From: a virus | Length of the DNA stretch: 60,246 bases | Virus record (IMG/VR): IMGVR_UViG_3300035670_000226 | Coordinates: 1-60,246 of that record | Strand: one strand, 5' to 3' | Shown: piece by piece, positions 19,482 to 47,984 of the stretch | Layout of the letters: each line of letters starts with the position of its first letter | Numbering within the stretch: position 1 is the stretch's first letter | The notes under the pieces: generated by a model | Database searches by the model: none | What the model saw: the letters and a program-made list of their open reading frames with translations, nothing else | What the model was told of the DNA's origin: nothing | Translations under genes and position numbers: made by a program

Positions 19482-19712
19482 CTACTCCTCAGTTAGAGGT
19501 TCAGCAACAGGTTCAGTATACCGAATTGTGTCAAGGTATGCACTAATTGAGTGGTATGTTGCATCAAAAAATGCACCAGTGTGTGCAAGCAGGTCGCACA
19601 CGTGGGTGTCAGGCTCACGACCATAAGACTGACTCAAATACTCTTCTAGTGCTGGTCCAAAAGTTTCTACAAACTGCTTTGGACTCATGTAGGGCGGATT
19701 AGTGAACGGCAT
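19482..19712 (-). CDS. Hypothetical protein coupled to Hsp20
   Basis: 76 aa, ATG at 19712 overlapping the Hsp20 stop. Mostly helical (SPKQFVETFGPALEEYLSQSYG), acidic at the end. Shares the transcript with Hsp20; no family recognised. Confidence 0.5.
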   Translation of the reverse strand: MPFTNPPYMSPKQFVETFGPALEEYLSQSYGREPDTHVCDLLAHTGAFFDATYHSISAYLDTIRYTEPVAEPLTEE

Positions 19713-20236
19713 TAGTTAATCTCAATCTGCTTAGGCTTCTTCTCCTCAGGGAGCTCAAGCTCTAGCATAATGGTTAACAGACCATCTTCAAGCTTGGCGC
19801 TCTTTACCTCAATGTACTCTGCGATAGCAAAGGTAGTGGTGAAGTTGCGCTGAGCGATGCCGTGGTGAATGACTTCGCCGTACTTGCCCTCTTCAGGGAT
19901 GTCGTTGCGGTCTTCAATGTCTGACCGCACCGTGAGAACACGGTCCTTTACAAACACCTCGACCTCTTCCTTCTTGAAACCAGCAAGTGCCATGGTGATG
20001 GTGTAGTTGTCACCAGACTTGGTCAGGTTGTATGGAGGGAAGGAGGGTTTGTGTTGGGACAACTCCTTGAGGGTGCTGAACACAGAGTCGTAGCCAATAC
20101 CCCAACGGTCAATGTTAGGGAATAGAGTGTAAATGGTAGCAGGCTTCTGGTCGACCTTTGCTGGGGTCTTGTAAGGCTGCTTTGGTGGGTAGTGGTCGTG
20201 GTTATCCCACTGTTGGAATTCAGGATTTCTAGACAT
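19712..20236 (-). CDS. Hsp20-family small heat shock protein
   Basis: 174 aa. N-terminal Pro/His-rich arm (1-45), then an alpha-crystallin domain (~65-155): NLTKSGDNYTITMALAGFKKEEVEVFVKD and the hallmark strand DGLLTIMLELELPEE; the C-terminal I-x-I (IEIN) motif is present. The segment LFPNIDRWGIGYDSVFS is like IbpA-type and T4-like cyanophage Hsp20. It would hold unfolded host or virion proteins. The 300-nt region upstream carries inverted repeats that may control it. Confidence 0.9.
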   Translation of the reverse strand: MSRNPEFQQWDNHDHYPPKQPYKTPAKVDQKPATIYTLFPNIDRWGIGYDSVFSTLKELSQHKPSFPPYNLTKSGDNYTITMALAGFKKEEVEVFVKDRVLTVRSDIEDRNDIPEEGKYGEVIHHGIAQRNFTTTFAIAEYIEVKSAKLEDGLLTIMLELELPEEKKPKQIEIN

Positions 20237-26802: not shown

Positions 26803-26824
26803 CAACTGTTCTAAGGAGGACACA

Positions 26825-28591
26825 ATGAGCACAACGCTGCTCACCAAGAGCGACATAATCTTGTCGACTCACGCATCAAGTTACATCCGTATGCAACTTG
26901 ACGGCCACAGGCGTTACCCTGGTGCTGTCTCTGTGTACGGAGATGACCCTGTAGACCTTGACAAGGTTCACAGCGACCCTAACGAGGCTAAGGACTACGA
27001 CAGCCTTGTGCAGACCACTCGTTGGCTTCTCAAGTCTTTCGAGCACGCCGAGCACATCATTAGGAACAAGCACAAGTTCATTGCCCTAGCTGAAGCTAAT
27101 GACGACAGCGTGTCAGTGACCTTCAAGCACGCAGGCATTGTTTCTGTGTGGGATTCAATGCGAGGTACTGATAGCAGGTTGCTCAACATCAGAGCATCTG
27201 CAGTTGGTAAGCTGCTTGAGCCTTACGCAGCTCTGTTGTCATCCGACCACCCCACTGCAATTAGGTACAAAGACTGGGGCTCAAGCGTGTGGGTGTTCAA
27301 CAACCCCAAGCTTCAGCAGAGCTATGTAGGTGACGCACACACACCTACACTGCAACGAGCACTGTGGCTTAGTAAGCGTAACAACTTACTCAACATGCTA
27401 GGCAGTGGTCAGCGTTACGAGACCAAGCGTGACCTAATGGTTGATGACACTCCTCGTATTGCTTTACTTGTACAGCCTGACCACCAGAGCTCAATCACAG
27501 TGAGTGACTTCCGCAAGTTAGCAACAGCAATGGATAGACACGCCAACCACAAGCCGTCTATCTATGACTTGCAGTCCATTCGCTCTGACCTACTCGGTGA
27601 GCAGGTAGCCCTACAACGACACGAGAGTGTTCAGCGTCAGGTCATTGCTCGTGAGAACTTCACCAAGTATTGGGACACACTCAAGCGGGCTATCCGTGAT
27701 GAGGCACCATCGCTTGTGGATGCAGAGCTACAGTGGAGAGAGATACCACTGCACCCAGCAGACACACCAAGCTCACGCACTTGGGGCATTGAGGTCGAGA
27801 CTGTTCGTGCTCACTTGGTTAACCGACCTGCTGGTTGGGACTCACGCTACGATGGCTCACTTCCTGATGAAGGTGGTAGCAGTTGTAACTGTGACTGTGA
27901 CAGCTGCTATGATGGTGACCACTGCAATGACAGAGGCAGTGACTGCTACGACGACAACGATGAGGACATCGAGTCGAGAGAGTTCGTCTCTCCTGTCCTT
28001 GAGAGCTTCAACTCTCGTGGTCTTCGTTCTATCTGTGACGAGCTACCTACCAGAGAGGAACGCACTGAGCCTGGCATCCATGTCCATGTCGGTGCCCGTG
28101 ACTTGACGATAGCAGATGTTGGTAGACTGCTAGTTGCTTACAGCGTAGCTGCACCAATCATCATGCCTCTCTACCACCGAGAGGTATACGGATACTGCAA
28201 GGAGACAGGCACTAGCACCATTCAGTCCTGGCTCAGTGCAGCTCGTAGGTATCTCAAGGAGCAGGGCAGACTGCCTCAGCCTGTAGAAATCTACAGCTCA
28301 CTAAGCAGTGACCGCTACCAAGATGTCAATGTCACAGCACTTGATAGGCACGGCACCATTGAGTTCCGTGCTATGGGTCCTTACTATGACTACGACCACC
28401 TAGTCCGTTGGGCTTGGTTCTGTCGTGAGATGGTCAATGTATCCAAGCTTGGTCTACCTCAGCAGGTATGGACACGGTGCAAGTCTGTACGAGATGTAGT
28501 CACCGTGCTTCGCAAGTACGGTTCAGAGTCACCGTTTGACAAGGACTTCTTGGCAATCGACACAGCATCACTCGTCTTACAAGACGACTAA
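26825..28591 (+). CDS. Putative amidoligase (Amidoligase_2 / ATP-grasp-like COOH-NH2 ligase)
   Basis: 588 aa from ATG at 26825 behind AAGGAGGACACA. C-terminal half carries the Amidoligase_2 signatures: GIEVET (~321-326), GIHVHVG (~417) and TIEFRAMG (~511). A Cys/Asp-rich insert (~352-380; CNCDCDSC, CNDRGSDC) is unusual and could bind metal. Residues 1-~315 are a separate, unassigned domain. Family members are predicted to form amide or peptide bonds with ATP; the next gene supplies ammonia from glutamine. Substrate unknown; codon use resembles neighbours. Only the C-terminal half supports the family call. Confidence 0.75.
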   Translation: MSTTLLTKSDIILSTHASSYIRMQLDGHRRYPGAVSVYGDDPVDLDKVHSDPNEAKDYDSLVQTTRWLLKSFEHAEHIIRNKHKFIALAEANDDSVSVTFKHAGIVSVWDSMRGTDSRLLNIRASAVGKLLEPYAALLSSDHPTAIRYKDWGSSVWVFNNPKLQQSYVGDAHTPTLQRALWLSKRNNLLNMLGSGQRYETKRDLMVDDTPRIALLVQPDHQSSITVSDFRKLATAMDRHANHKPSIYDLQSIRSDLLGEQVALQRHESVQRQVIARENFTKYWDTLKRAIRDEAPSLVDAELQWREIPLHPADTPSSRTWGIEVETVRAHLVNRPAGWDSRYDGSLPDEGGSSCNCDCDSCYDGDHCNDRGSDCYDDNDEDIESREFVSPVLESFNSRGLRSICDELPTREERTEPGIHVHVGARDLTIADVGRLLVAYSVAAPIIMPLYHREVYGYCKETGTSTIQSWLSAARRYLKEQGRLPQPVEIYSSLSSDRYQDVNVTALDRHGTIEFRAMGPYYDYDHLVRWAWFCREMVNVSKLGLPQQVWTRCKSVRDVVTVLRKYGSESPFDKDFLAIDTASLVLQDD

Positions 28592-28616
28592 CCACTAACG
28601 AATAGGAGAACATACC

Positions 28617-29780
28617 ATGTGTGGTATCGCAGGCTTTAGCCTATCCCCAAACAGCAAGGTCAAGACACGAGAGCTTGCTCATGAACTACTAACATCCATC
28701 GAGGACAGAGGTTACATGGCTTCTGGTTATGCTTACCAAGTCAATGACACGATGGGTTACTTCAAGGCTGCAGTGCCTGGCTCACAGCTACCGCTCAAGC
28801 AGTTGCCTAAGTCAGCACGGCATGTCATCTTGCACACTCGCCTTGCTACTCACGGTGCAGTGACAGACAATCGCAACAACCACCCTGTGTTGTCACCTAG
28901 TCAAGACATTGCTCTAGTACACAACGGTGTCATCTACAACCACCAAGAGGTACGCTTCAAGATTGACGGCGACCTACCTGATGTAGACACCAGCGTTATC
29001 CCTGCTGTCATTGAGCAGCTCGGTGTTGACTCACTAGATGTGCTTGACGGCGATGCAGCTATCGCATGGTTCAACCGCAACGAAGCTAACACCTTGCACC
29101 TTGCTAGGTTCCAGCACTCACCACTTGTCATGTGTCAGATTGAGGATGGCTCGTTCATCTTCGCTAGTACTGAGAAGTTGTTGTGGGAGGTTCTAGTTCA
29201 GCTTGACCTCATGCCTACATGGATGGAGACAGCTAAGGAGCTTGACTACTTCACAATTCGTGATGGCATTGTGCTCTCTAGTAGCAGACTACCTGAGCCT
29301 AAGCACTACAACAACTACTACGACTACAACTACTACCGTCACCAGACTGCTGGTGCTAAAAGTAGCAGTACTACGAGTGGTGCCACCTACAACATCTATG
29401 GCTCTCAGTATGTCGAGGGCTATGGTTGGAGCGAGTGGGATGACTTCGGAGAGGAAGACGACAGATACTTCTACGCTGAGTCATCATCAGACAATGTGAA
29501 TAACAACAGGGTTATCTCTATCCCTGAATACGAGGATGGGTACGAGGACAACATCATTCCCTTCACTAAGCCCGACATCAGTCGTGGCAAGTGGTACACC
29601 CGCATCCTTGAACATGGTGAGGAACAGACCGACCTCTTGGTGTACAACGAGGGACAAGTAGAGCAATGGAAGGATGAGCTGTATCTATTGTCAGATAGCC
29701 GCAGTAACATGACTGTCATTGACTACGGTGTCATCAGACGAGACGGCACTCTAGTGTCTGCTACTGAAGACATCTTCTAA
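28617..29780 (+). CDS. Class II glutamine amidotransferase
   Basis: 387 aa, ATG at 28617 (AGGAG upstream). Begins MCGIAGF with the nucleophile Cys2; THGAVTDNRNNHPV (~81-94) and ALVHNGVIYN (~98-107) give the conserved Arg and Asn/Gly oxyanion pieces. The N-terminal ~200 residues are the Ntn-hydrolase domain that frees ammonia. The C terminus (~220-387) has a Tyr/Asn repeat (YNNYYDYNYYR) and acidic stretches, unlike asparagine synthetase or GlmS. It sits 25 bp after the amidoligase, so the two probably work together. Confidence 0.85.
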   Translation: MCGIAGFSLSPNSKVKTRELAHELLTSIEDRGYMASGYAYQVNDTMGYFKAAVPGSQLPLKQLPKSARHVILHTRLATHGAVTDNRNNHPVLSPSQDIALVHNGVIYNHQEVRFKIDGDLPDVDTSVIPAVIEQLGVDSLDVLDGDAAIAWFNRNEANTLHLARFQHSPLVMCQIEDGSFIFASTEKLLWEVLVQLDLMPTWMETAKELDYFTIRDGIVLSSSRLPEPKHYNNYYDYNYYRHQTAGAKSSSTTSGATYNIYGSQYVEGYGWSEWDDFGEEDDRYFYAESSSDNVNNNRVISIPEYEDGYEDNIIPFTKPDISRGKWYTRILEHGEEQTDLLVYNEGQVEQWKDELYLLSDSRSNMTVIDYGVIRRDGTLVSATEDIF

Positions 29781-31265: not shown

Positions 31266-31757
31266 ATGGGACTAGACATGTATCTAGATGTACGTAAGTT
31301 CATTTCAGTAATCGATTGGAAAAGTGTTCCAAAAGAAGGAGTGCCTGATGGAACGTCTTTCAGTGACTACAAATCAGCTGAGTTCTTGAAGTTAGCAGAG
31401 TTCTTTCCTGAAAGCCTCAAGAAGTATTCTCAGACAGGAAGCTATGCGACACTAAACGTAGGTTACTGGAGAAAAGCGTATCAAATTCATAACTGGTTTG
31501 TGAAGCACGTGCAGAAAGGCAACGACAATTGCGAGCCGTATTGGGTAAGCCGAGACACACTAAAAGAGCTGTTAACTACAGTAGACAAAGTGCTGTCTGG
31601 AAGTAAGCGAACAGCAGAAGAGCTGTTGCCTTCAACTTCCGACTACCACGACTGGTATTACGATGACCTGCGGCACACCAAAGAAATGCTTGAGTCAGTA
31701 TTAGCAGATGTGCCAGAATCATGGGACTACGACTTCTACTACAACTCAAGTTGGTAA
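31266..31757 (+). CDS. MGLDMYL-type phage protein
   Basis: 163 aa starting MGLDMYLDVRKFI, a start shared by a widespread phage/bacterial hypothetical family. Contains YAT.NVGYWRKAYQIHNWFV with paired Trp/His and NDNCEPYWVS, then acidic helices. AAAGGAAAACAA upstream. No activity is established; a metal or nucleic-acid role is only a possibility. Confidence 0.6.
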   Translation: MGLDMYLDVRKFISVIDWKSVPKEGVPDGTSFSDYKSAEFLKLAEFFPESLKKYSQTGSYATLNVGYWRKAYQIHNWFVKHVQKGNDNCEPYWVSRDTLKELLTTVDKVLSGSKRTAEELLPSTSDYHDWYYDDLRHTKEMLESVLADVPESWDYDFYYNSSW

Positions 31758-34246: not shown

Positions 34247-34567
34247 ATGGAAAGAAGTCTTGTCAAAGTTACTGATGCTCTGTGTGCTGAGGTAGACCCA
34301 GAGTTATTCTTTGCTCAAGACTCCATGAAGTATGGGGGCACCGCATCGTACATCAACGTCAGGTATGCAAAAATGCTGTGTGCTAGGTGCCCTCTTACTT
34401 ACTCTTGTCTTATGACTGCGGTAAAGAACACTGAGGAGTATGGCATCTGGGGAGGGTCAACTCCTAGCGAGCGCCGTCACATTCACACTAATGCAGACGT
34501 AGTAAAGTTCGTGTCAAAACTCAACGATGAGAACCGAGCTTTGCCTAGGCGCAAAAGAAATAGATAA
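34247..34567 (+). CDS. whiB-like: WhiB-family iron-sulfur regulator
   Basis: 106 aa. Cys13, Cys45, Cys48, Cys54 (C-x2-C-x5-C) bind a 4Fe-4S cluster; GIWGG at 66-70 followed by STPSERRH matches the Wbl turn and sigma-contacting region, then a basic C terminus (LPRRKRNR). Wbl proteins bind sigma A region 4 of actinobacterial RNA polymerase, so it likely redirects host transcription. Last gene before the converging terminator. Confidence 0.9.
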   Translation: MERSLVKVTDALCAEVDPELFFAQDSMKYGGTASYINVRYAKMLCARCPLTYSCLMTAVKNTEEYGIWGGSTPSERRHIHTNADVVKFVSKLNDENRALPRRKRNR

Positions 34568-34633: not shown

Positions 34634-36127
34634 CTAGTCTTCAATAGACTCTGAGATAATTCGAGTAGTTGCATCCTCATTTATAGGGTTCTGCATCTCT
34701 CTTAAAGCACTTGCACGGTCACCAAAAATAGCGCTCAAAACACCTCCGCTAGTCTCTCGGCTAGCAGTGATTTGAACAAACTCTTTGTTGCTTTCTAGGT
34801 CCTTCATATTGGACACTAACTTGAACAACCTGTCAATCTCTTGTGACACATTCGGGTCAGCGTATCCGCCACTCATTTCCTCTGCATACCGCATAAATGC
34901 TACCCTCTGGCCTTGCATCTCGATAATCGCAGTGAGCAAATCCTTCAGCTGTTCACGAGTTTTAACCTCTACCGGAAGGTTAAACGCACACATGTTATCT
35001 GGCTTAAATGCAGGGCAATTTGCAGCAACAAAACAGGTGTTACACTGCCTCAAAGAAGACTGCTGAGAACGTACTACAGCCACTTCTTTCAGGTTGTTAT
35101 CAGCGTCTACAATCGTCTTAGATTCAAACCCAAAAACAGGTAAGTTAACCTTTTCTGCAGGGTCTCTAGGCTCAACTTTTTTCCGCTCTACAGAACCCTT
35201 GTTATTAGAAGCCCCTAGGTCCAAATCCATCAAACCCGTATATAGAGACTCGTCGTTGTTATCTACTAACATCTCCTCAATTGATGGTAAATCGCCCTTG
35301 ATAACACGAAATCCGTTCTTCTTTTTATCTTTATCCATGCTCGCTTCTAACTGTAAATACGACCAAATAGCCACTTTAGTAGCCTCTAAAGTGTCGTCAG
35401 AGACAAACTTCTCAAAGTCTAACCCAGCATCACTGACAATACGAGCGTAACGTCTGCGAGCTTGGTCTTTCATTTTTTTAGGATAACGGACTAACTTACT
35501 TCCATCCCAAACAATGGTCTCTCCTCGTCTCATAGGAGAAATCCAAGACAAAGTGCTGGCGGTGTCGAACGGAATCTGACGTAAATTGTCAGGCTTGGCA
35601 GTAGCTAACGCATGAAAAGAAGTTCCATACTGAGCTTTAGCTGCTCTGACTAATCCAGAAAGAAAAGGCACATTCTCTATGGCAGTGCCAGGAATCGCCA
35701 CATTTTGGTATTGAGCTGCCCATTCTCCAACCAATAACGTGCTGTAAGTGTCATGCCAAACAACCCACATCTTCGGGTCATTTTCAAAGGCTGCTCTGTT
35801 CTGGAGTATCCTGGGCAATCCCCAAGCTTGACTATCAAACTCTACCCAGCCCTCTATTCTGTCGTAATTCAAAGCTACGAACTCTTCATAATTAGCTGCG
35901 TACTCTTCTAGCTCTCGCTTGGATAGACCTGCTTTGTCTGCTTGAGTGGCCCCTGAATCTACCCACACTTTCATGTCAGGAAGAAACTGCTCCCCTACCA
36001 TGTAGGCTTTAGTCTTAGGCAGACCTCGCTTACACAAGCCCCAATAGTTCAACATCACGTTGGTAACACCATTGCGTTCTAGCAAGGTGCGATTGCTAGG
36101 AATCTCTACGCCACCAAATATAAGCAT
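34634..36127 (-). CDS. Large protein with TGT/DpdA-like barrel features
   Basis: 497 aa. N-terminal 240 residues show a TIM-barrel style with VDSGATQAD (~57-65), near the DSG motif of tRNA-guanine transglycosylase relatives such as phage DpdA, and ALATAKPDNLRQIPF later. Around 375-395 a Cys cluster (CNTC..., NCPA, MCAF) may bind metal, then a helical C terminus. If correct, it would exchange a guanine base in DNA or RNA. No deazaguanine synthesis genes are seen nearby. Family assignment is weak; could also be an unrelated barrel. Confidence 0.4.
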   Translation of the reverse strand: MLIFGGVEIPSNRTLLERNGVTNVMLNYWGLCKRGLPKTKAYMVGEQFLPDMKVWVDSGATQADKAGLSKRELEEYAANYEEFVALNYDRIEGWVEFDSQAWGLPRILQNRAAFENDPKMWVVWHDTYSTLLVGEWAAQYQNVAIPGTAIENVPFLSGLVRAAKAQYGTSFHALATAKPDNLRQIPFDTASTLSWISPMRRGETIVWDGSKLVRYPKKMKDQARRRYARIVSDAGLDFEKFVSDDTLEATKVAIWSYLQLEASMDKDKKKNGFRVIKGDLPSIEEMLVDNNDESLYTGLMDLDLGASNNKGSVERKKVEPRDPAEKVNLPVFGFESKTIVDADNNLKEVAVVRSQQSSLRQCNTCFVAANCPAFKPDNMCAFNLPVEVKTREQLKDLLTAIIEMQGQRVAFMRYAEEMSGGYADPNVSQEIDRLFKLVSNMKDLESNKEFVQITASRETSGGVLSAIFGDRASALREMQNPINEDATTRIISESIED

Positions 36128-46811: not shown

Positions 46812-47653
46812 TATTCGCTGTACCCTTCGCACTGCTTGCAGGTTCCTCCAACGTTGTTGTTGCATGGAGGTTCGGAGTTAGTCTCAACCGCTGTAATCAC
46901 CTTTGCACAGTTATCAAAGATGTGTCGAACAAGCTCGTAATCTGCCTTGACTGAAAACTCCTTGTAGTCTTGGTCGGCCTTCAGCTCATACAGGAATACA
47001 ATCTCGTTGACTTCGTGACCCATACGCTTCATTAGCTCTAGGTACATCTGCCCCTGAAGAAGGTGCGAGCGGAATGGTCGGCGTACGTTTCGCCATGCGG
47101 CCATGAAATCCATCCCAGGCTCAAACAAGTCTGGTGACTCTGCTCGGATTGTTCCAGGTCCAATCGACTTAATTTCAATCAGAGTATCGTCACCGAGACC
47201 CTTAATCCAGCCATCAGTGTGCCCCTTAATTCGCAAAGCGTCATCGGACAAAGTAACTTCGGCGTACTCTAAACGCTTGTGACCACAGTGCTCACAGGTA
47301 TCTGGAGAAGTTCCCCAAGTAATTTGCTCGCAGGCTACACACTCAAACTTTCCGTGTAGTACGCCCATCTCATAGAACCAGTTCTGCCACTTAGCGTGGA
47401 TAGCGTGGCCTTCATCAAAGATGGACTGTAAGCGCAAGTTAGGGCGCTCTTGAATCTTTTGGTGACCCCTTAGAAGGAAGTATGATGCCCTACGACACCA
47501 GTCCTTCTTGATAATCTCTGATGGGTGCAGAACGTCTGTCCTGCGGTCGCCAGGAGGACGGGATAGTAAGTGACGCTCTACGTCTCCGACCAATCGAGTC
47601 TTCTTGTTCTTGGCTTCTAAAAACTTTTTCAAGTCAGTGTTCGTTACTGGCAT
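46811..47653 (-). CDS. Cas4/RecB-like PD-(D/E)XK exonuclease
   Basis: 280 aa. Nuclease core: IKGHTDGWIKGLGDDTLIEIKS (Asp...Glu-x-Lys), QGQMYLELMKRMG (helix after the core). Cys53 (WCRRASYF) plus three C-terminal Cys (CNNNVGGTCKQC) match the Cas4 iron-sulfur site. An extra zinc ribbon (CVACEQ...CEHC) is inserted at ~104-122. Likely DNA end resection with RecA. No Cas genes or CRISPR arrays seen, so Cas4-like refers only to fold. Confidence 0.85.
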   Translation of the reverse strand: MPVTNTDLKKFLEAKNKKTRLVGDVERHLLSRPPGDRRTDVLHPSEIIKKDWCRRASYFLLRGHQKIQERPNLRLQSIFDEGHAIHAKWQNWFYEMGVLHGKFECVACEQITWGTSPDTCEHCGHKRLEYAEVTLSDDALRIKGHTDGWIKGLGDDTLIEIKSIGPGTIRAESPDLFEPGMDFMAAWRNVRRPFRSHLLQGQMYLELMKRMGHEVNEIVFLYELKADQDYKEFSVKADYELVRHIFDNCAKVITAVETNSEPPCNNNVGGTCKQCEGYSE

Positions 47654-47984
47654 TTAGGCCCTCCCTTTCTTTAAAGATGTAGTCCTTTAAACTCATCTTA
47701 CCTTTATAGCTCTTTTGCCACTTTCGCACAAGTGCGTTACGTTCTCTATGCGATAAGCCTCCCCATATTCCATGCTGCTCTTCTGTCACCACCGCCTCCC
47801 ACAAGCAGTTTGCTCGAACTGGGCAAGGAAGGGTTCCTTTAGGGCCATTGCAGTATGTTTTAGCTTCTGCGGCTATTTTGTTATATAGAAGCTTGTCTCT
47901 CGGTGGATAGAATATCTCCGTGTCTGCGGTTGCACACTTTGCGTCTGCTCTCCAAGAAAAGTCAAGATTTTCGTCAAGTATCAA
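47634..47984 (-). CDS. whiB-like: WhiB-family regulator with altered Cys spacing
   Basis: 116 aa, TTG start at 47984 (in-frame only start). Cys17, Cys45, Cys54, Cys60: the second-third spacing is C-x8-C rather than the usual C-x2-C, by an insertion CNGPKGTLPC. GIWGG (72-76) and SHRERNAL follow as expected. Could still bind a cluster; function as for Wbl regulators. It overlaps the RecB-like start by 20 nt and the Hjc-like stop by 11 nt. Confidence 0.8.
   Translation of the reverse strand: MILDENLDFSWRADAKCATADTEIFYPPRDKLLYNKIAAEAKTYCNGPKGTLPCPVRANCLWEAVVTEEQHGIWGGLSHRERNALVRKWQKSYKGKMSLKDYIFKEREGLNASNEH

Follow-up and report, generated by a model that had tools for sequence, protein, structure and literature searches.

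The IMG/VR virus record IMGVR_UViG_3300035670_000226 (60,246 bases, analysed over its whole length and called the window here) carries, within a + strand run of small genes, two adjoining genes for an amidoligase of 588 amino acids (aa) and a class II glutamine amidotransferase (GATase) of 387 aa. The pair, as judged from sequence, is real, conserved, enzymatically plausible, and already described in kind; a two-gene form, a Cys-rich insert, and an N-terminal domain (N-domain) of the ligase are what set this variant apart. The closest counterparts of the capsid protein (61% identity) and of the DNA polymerase (37% identity) are those of the Streptomyces phages LuckySocke, BRock, and their kin, and because these phages have genomes of about 115 kb, the window may be a partial genome. 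WhiB genes in the window indicate an actinobacterial host, and the WhiB-bearing actinophages that share this form of the pair are referred to below as the actinophage group.

The ligase and the amidotransferase

The ligase scored 37.9 bits against PF12224 (Amidoligase_2; curated cut-off, 22), a family also matched by all 38 aligned relatives, and contains the motifs GIEVET (residues 321 to 326), GIHVHVG (417 to 423), and TIEFRAMG (511 to 518). Residues E323, E325, D343, G417, H419, E513, and R515 were invariant in 51/51 related viral ligases, with H421 differing in one of them; the residues named for the catalytic domain are E323, E325, D343, E386, H419, H421, E513, and R515. The protein was modelled with AlphaFold2 (alignment of 38 sequences; mean pLDDT, 84), and residues 316 to 570 of the predicted model were compared with solved structures using VIA-align, which gave Z 11.1 for YbdK-like 1tt4 (root mean square deviation 3.7, 194 residues), Z 10.8 for 1r8g, and Z of about 9 to 10 for many glutamine synthetases and Dop, at 8 to 19% identity over the aligned part. 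As modelled, the C-terminal half has the fold of the glutamine synthetase (GS) superfamily. An initial annotation had proposed a 588-residue amidoligase from the three motifs; the family match and the GS-like fold bear this out, the motifs, coordinates, strands, and lengths given for the two genes were all correct, and the catalytic residues are retained in the homologs. To our knowledge, no GATase partner forms part of YbdK, glutamine synthetase, or Dop. The best structural match, covering almost the whole length (E 1.4e-15, 22% identity), was A0A6J5MRC8 from an uncultured Caudovirales phage, known by its database name only (“Amidoligase enzyme”); at 489 aa it is shorter than the window ligase and fits a second size class of about 500 aa. 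Three such classes occur in the actinophage group, namely the 588-aa clade, the ~500-aa ligases, and the ~300-aa ligases (264 to 335 aa). A scan of bacterial genome contigs yielded two remote short ligases only, and the 588-aa-type architecture was not met there.

The Cys/Asp-rich insert pointed out by the initial annotation is real and conserved across the group. It lies between D343-G-S and E386, and seven members of the 588-aa clade all share C354, C356, C358, C361, H366, and C374. Nearly all ligases of the actinophage group contain such an insert, longer and with about ten cysteines in the ~500-aa and ~300-aa classes, and it was absent from the compared ligases of gut, Arthrobacter, and Porphyromonas phages and from the two bacterial ones. 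We regard it as a putative metal-binding element.

The N-domain of about 305 aa is restricted to the close relatives that form the 588-aa clade. Modelled on its own, it gave a confident fold (pLDDT, 82), with no PHROG match, no phage relative by tblastn, and no PDB match at E < 0.1 (Foldseek), which does not by itself make the fold a novel one; VIA-align likewise returned no PDB match at Z >= 8 (best Z, 5.8, over partial stretches). A PDB sequence search offered 7bvj at E 0.006 only, a match judged unreliable. The invariant positions D10, Y38, G104, W283, K287, and W304 do not look like a catalytic set, which makes binding or assembly a likelier role than that of a second enzyme; the domain may serve in substrate recognition or assembly. 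The ~500-aa ligases carry a different N-domain that is not detectably related to it, homology of the two being rejected for now (hhalign probability, 0.2%), and the ~300-aa ligases have none.

The GATase matches PF13522 (GATase_6), and its nearest solved structure by profile is GlmS (9.5e-25), followed by PurF (4.9e-13) and AsnB (2.6e-11). C2, R75, N103, G104, and D124 are invariant in 32/32 GATases, and we take them to be the nucleophile (C2), substrate-binding Arg (R75), oxyanion Asn-Gly (N103-G104), and Asp (D124) of class II glutaminases such as GlmS. Family match and invariant catalytic residues agree with the class II GATase that had been read from Cys2 and the class II amidotransferase pattern. 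The tail, described earlier as Tyr-rich, opens with the motif [YF]R..T[AS]G, which is conserved in 44/46 GATases of the group versus 0/9 outgroup GATases; beyond this motif it is variable. Of the three parts that the initial annotation called unexplained, the insert and the tail thus hold conserved motifs rather than noise, and these parts and the N-domain still have no function assigned. Two gut phages, L058 (6183-10676) and L063, have one GATase flanked by two different amidoligases, and the tails of their GATases carry CxxC zinc-ribbon-like motifs in place of YR..T[AS]G.

Table 1. Coordinates in the window of the pair, its parts, and other genes named in the text
Feature	Position	Strand	Evidence
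Shine-Dalgarno-like taaggagg before ligase ATG	26811..26818 (approximate)	+	sequence
Amidoligase (PF12224), 588 aa	26825..28591	+	Pfam 2.3e-9; PHROG 2443 7.4e-12; AlphaFold2 model, pLDDT 84
Ligase N-domain, residues 1-305	26825..27739	+	modelled alone, pLDDT 82
Ligase catalytic domain, residues 316-570, GS/YbdK-like fold	27770..28534	+	structure match of model; residue conservation
Cys/His/Asp-rich insert, residues 354-378	27884..27958	+	conserved Cys/His; low model confidence there
Shine-Dalgarno-like ataggaga before GATase ATG	28602..28609 (approximate)	+	sequence
Class II GATase, 387 aa, Cys2 nucleophile	28617..29780	+	PF13522 3.6e-21; PHROG 14519 1.1e-33
YNYYRHQTAG motif, GATase residues 237-246, tail start	29325..29354	+	[YF]R..T[AS]G conservation
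Hsp20 small heat-shock gene	19712-20236	-	phrog_432, 8e-37
163-aa protein gene	31266-31757	+	
WhiB-like regulator	34247-34567	+	
Queuine tRNA-ribosyltransferase-like (DpdA-like) gene	34634-36127	-	phrog_887, E 3e-59
WhiB-like regulator	47634-47984	-	

The pair as a unit

The two genes, both full-length, are 25 bp apart, each with a good ribosome-binding site. With the GATase as sole query, viral contigs yielded 61 loci. A ligase lies within ~1.3 kb at 54 of them, and each of the other seven is on a contig that starts under 1.2 kb upstream of the GATase. Ligase and GATase are co-directional at some loci and divergent at others, so the linkage outlives rearrangement. The pair is an obligate unit, the ligase and GATase trees agree (both recover the 588-aa clade, and their distance matrices are correlated), and the catalytic residues of both proteins are invariant down to about 17 to 20% identity. 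Comparison of the locus in eight relatives of the 588-aa clade showed nothing in common but the ligase and GATase genes, with differing genes around them, which makes the pair a movable module of two genes, set here among small + strand genes. The initial annotation had set it at the heart of an accessory operon; the run of small + strand genes is there, but conservation at this place is limited to the pair itself. In some relatives an SSB-like gene, judged by eye, lies directly downstream of the GATase (L002 10819-11331, L074 4226-4648).

Kinship with described phage modules

Amidoligase and GATase genes are annotated as neighbours in Arthrobacter phages, LUZ24-like phages, and Alcaligenes phage QDWS535, and in the LUZ24, Alcaligenes, and Arthrobacter phages the pair lies near a gamma-glutamyl cyclotransferase and second ligases. 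PF12224 and PF13522 have been reported together in the phages MEP401 and MEP402 and in over 30 viral genomes, aquatic in origin (PMC10580990); these two phages have another host (methylotrophic OM43) and are likened here by reported families, not sequences. The larger version is called a peptidoglycan modification cassette and is proposed to block superinfection (PMC5498523, PMC10580990, and PMC11318856). In podoviruses (RIO-1/PSA-HP1, phiEco32, LUZ24, PA11, and CW02), this cassette has the same PF12224-type amidoligase adjoining a class II GATase and also holds a gamma-glutamyl cyclotransferase, a second ligase, and an ATP-grasp enzyme, the first two of which were not found in the actinophage group; unlike the window ligase, that of LUZ24 showed neither a Cys-rich insert nor an N-domain. 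Arthrobacter phages Laroye, Salgado, and Ottawa (amidoligase gp98 and GATase gp99; 65/66) share the adjacent, co-directional arrangement, with a GATase 38% identical to that of the window over 217 aa, a ligase of ~324 to 354 aa without N-domain or Cys-rich insert, and a gamma-glutamyl cyclotransferase just upstream of the pair.

The cyclotransferase (PF06094) was found in 0/26 records of the actinophage group versus 9/10 others tested; the 26 include fragments and the window record is possibly incomplete, so that a single absence is weak evidence, and the absence is consistent over all 26. A second COOH-NH2 ligase (PF14395) was likewise found in none of the 26 (0/26), in a search that detected the positive controls LUZ24 and QDWS535. 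The ATP-grasp families PF08443 and PF18299 were not found either, but the RimK search missed LUZ24's own gene as well and so lacked the sensitivity to indicate absence. The pair is a variant of a module already described in phages and not a new system; particular to WhiB-bearing actinophages are the two-gene form without cyclotransferase, the Cys/His insert, and the YR..T[AS]G tail motif, with the N-domain confined to one clade.

Proposed reaction, its alternatives, and neighbouring genes

The two genes would encode a two-subunit glutamine-dependent amidoligase. Cys2 of the GATase would hydrolyse glutamine and hand ammonia to the ligase, which would use Mg-ATP in its GS-like site (E323/E325, D343, E386, H419, and E513/R515) to convert a substrate carboxylate to an acyl phosphate and then to an amide. 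We infer complex formation, ammonia transfer, and the reaction itself, and a course from glutamine hydrolysis through ammonia transfer and ATP activation of a carboxylate to an amide product is very probable. As for the substrate, our guess, by analogy with related cassettes, is a free carboxylate of the host cell-wall stem peptide or its precursor (D-iso-glutamate or meso-diaminopimelate), and the benefit might be a wall changed during infection, for example against the entry or lysins of competing phages. What favours a stem-peptide carboxylate over other candidates is the gene company that the ligase family keeps in other phages. Taken as a whole, glutamine-dependent amidation by the pair, most likely of a stem-peptide carboxylate, is a tentative reading that we nonetheless prefer; if true, actinophages edit host peptidoglycan during infection.

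Several points weigh against wall amidation. The genes next to the pair in this phage include none for cell-wall functions, and the cyclotransferase and second COOH-NH2 ligase, which point to glutamyl and peptidoglycan chemistry elsewhere, were not found in the actinophage group. The GATase could simply supply ammonia for amide formation on a protein or a metabolite. The correlation between the ligase and GATase distance matrices (r 0.54, reached by 0/2000 permutations) cannot tell partnership apart from common descent of the phages. No experiment probing the peptidoglycan hypothesis turned up in the literature searched; in the papers found, what phage amidoligase/GATase modules act on is still a matter of hypothesis, years on from the first prediction. 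The initial annotation had called the phage role unknown, which agrees with the lack of an experimental test but overlooks the standing peptidoglycan and superinfection-exclusion hypothesis (PMC5498523 and PMC10580990). In the actinophage group the module takes its simplest form (two genes, with no detected cyclotransferase or second ligase), and substrate and phenotype should be easier to probe directly here because only two genes are involved.

Because the telling gene company was not found in this group, protein and metabolite targets have to be weighed as well. The same chemistry on a carboxylate of a host or phage protein (C-terminus or side chain) would amount to reprogramming the host by post-translational modification. 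Related phage R2K ATP-grasp peptide ligases have been predicted to modify proteins of the host (PMC4431377), the large and variable N-domain suits recognition of a specific protein, and cell-wall genes are not nearby; yet the published contexts of the ligase family indicate glutamyl and peptidoglycan chemistry, and the 264- to 335-aa ligases of the group have no N-domain, so the core function does not depend on one. We consider a protein target unlikely, if worth keeping in view. A metabolic pair would make a small amide or a gamma-glutamyl metabolite or would assist nitrogen assimilation in infection. Nitrogen metabolism is a competing published idea for such genes, and genes of phage Marvin were suggested for secondary metabolite synthesis (quoted in PMC10580990); in the published passages, however, the growth effect cited is tied to the genes by inference alone. 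An enzyme that consumes glutamine is not one that assimilates ammonium, and the cyclotransferase that accompanies such genes was not found in this group, which leaves a metabolic role improbable. More speculative is a self-contained two-protein amidating enzyme evolved in actinophages, in which the Cys/His cluster by the active site would act as a metal or redox switch and exchangeable N-domains would pick host targets, making the pair a retargetable system and not a leftover of the podovirus cassette; we hold this to be a long shot.

Nucleic-acid modification together with the DpdA-like gene, by analogy to GAT-QueC amidination of 7-deazaguanine, draws on the presence of both a phrog_887 gene and a class II GATase in the window, but phrog_887 occurs in only 3/36 pair-bearing genomes, on which ground the link was rejected, the partner of the GATase is an amidoligase and not QueC, and the proteins scanned (a subset of the open reading frames) included no queC, queD, queE, or folE match, all of which makes it very improbable. 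That the pair is inactive or decaying cargo is scarcely credible: the BRock- and LuckySocke-type Streptomyces phages nearest to this one were absent from the matches of both ligase and GATase searches, so the pair is dispensable to such phages, but its catalytic residues stay invariant in distant homologs and its linkage survives changes of orientation.

The DpdA-like gene is of separate note as a sign of possible 7-deazaguanine DNA modification in this phage. One of the two WhiB-like regulators closes the block of small + strand genes. The gene for a 163-aa protein is common to phages with short ligases (L044, L047, and L025), where it is also near the pair. The Hsp20 gene seems to be present on the contig of a relative as well (L002 2588-3151).
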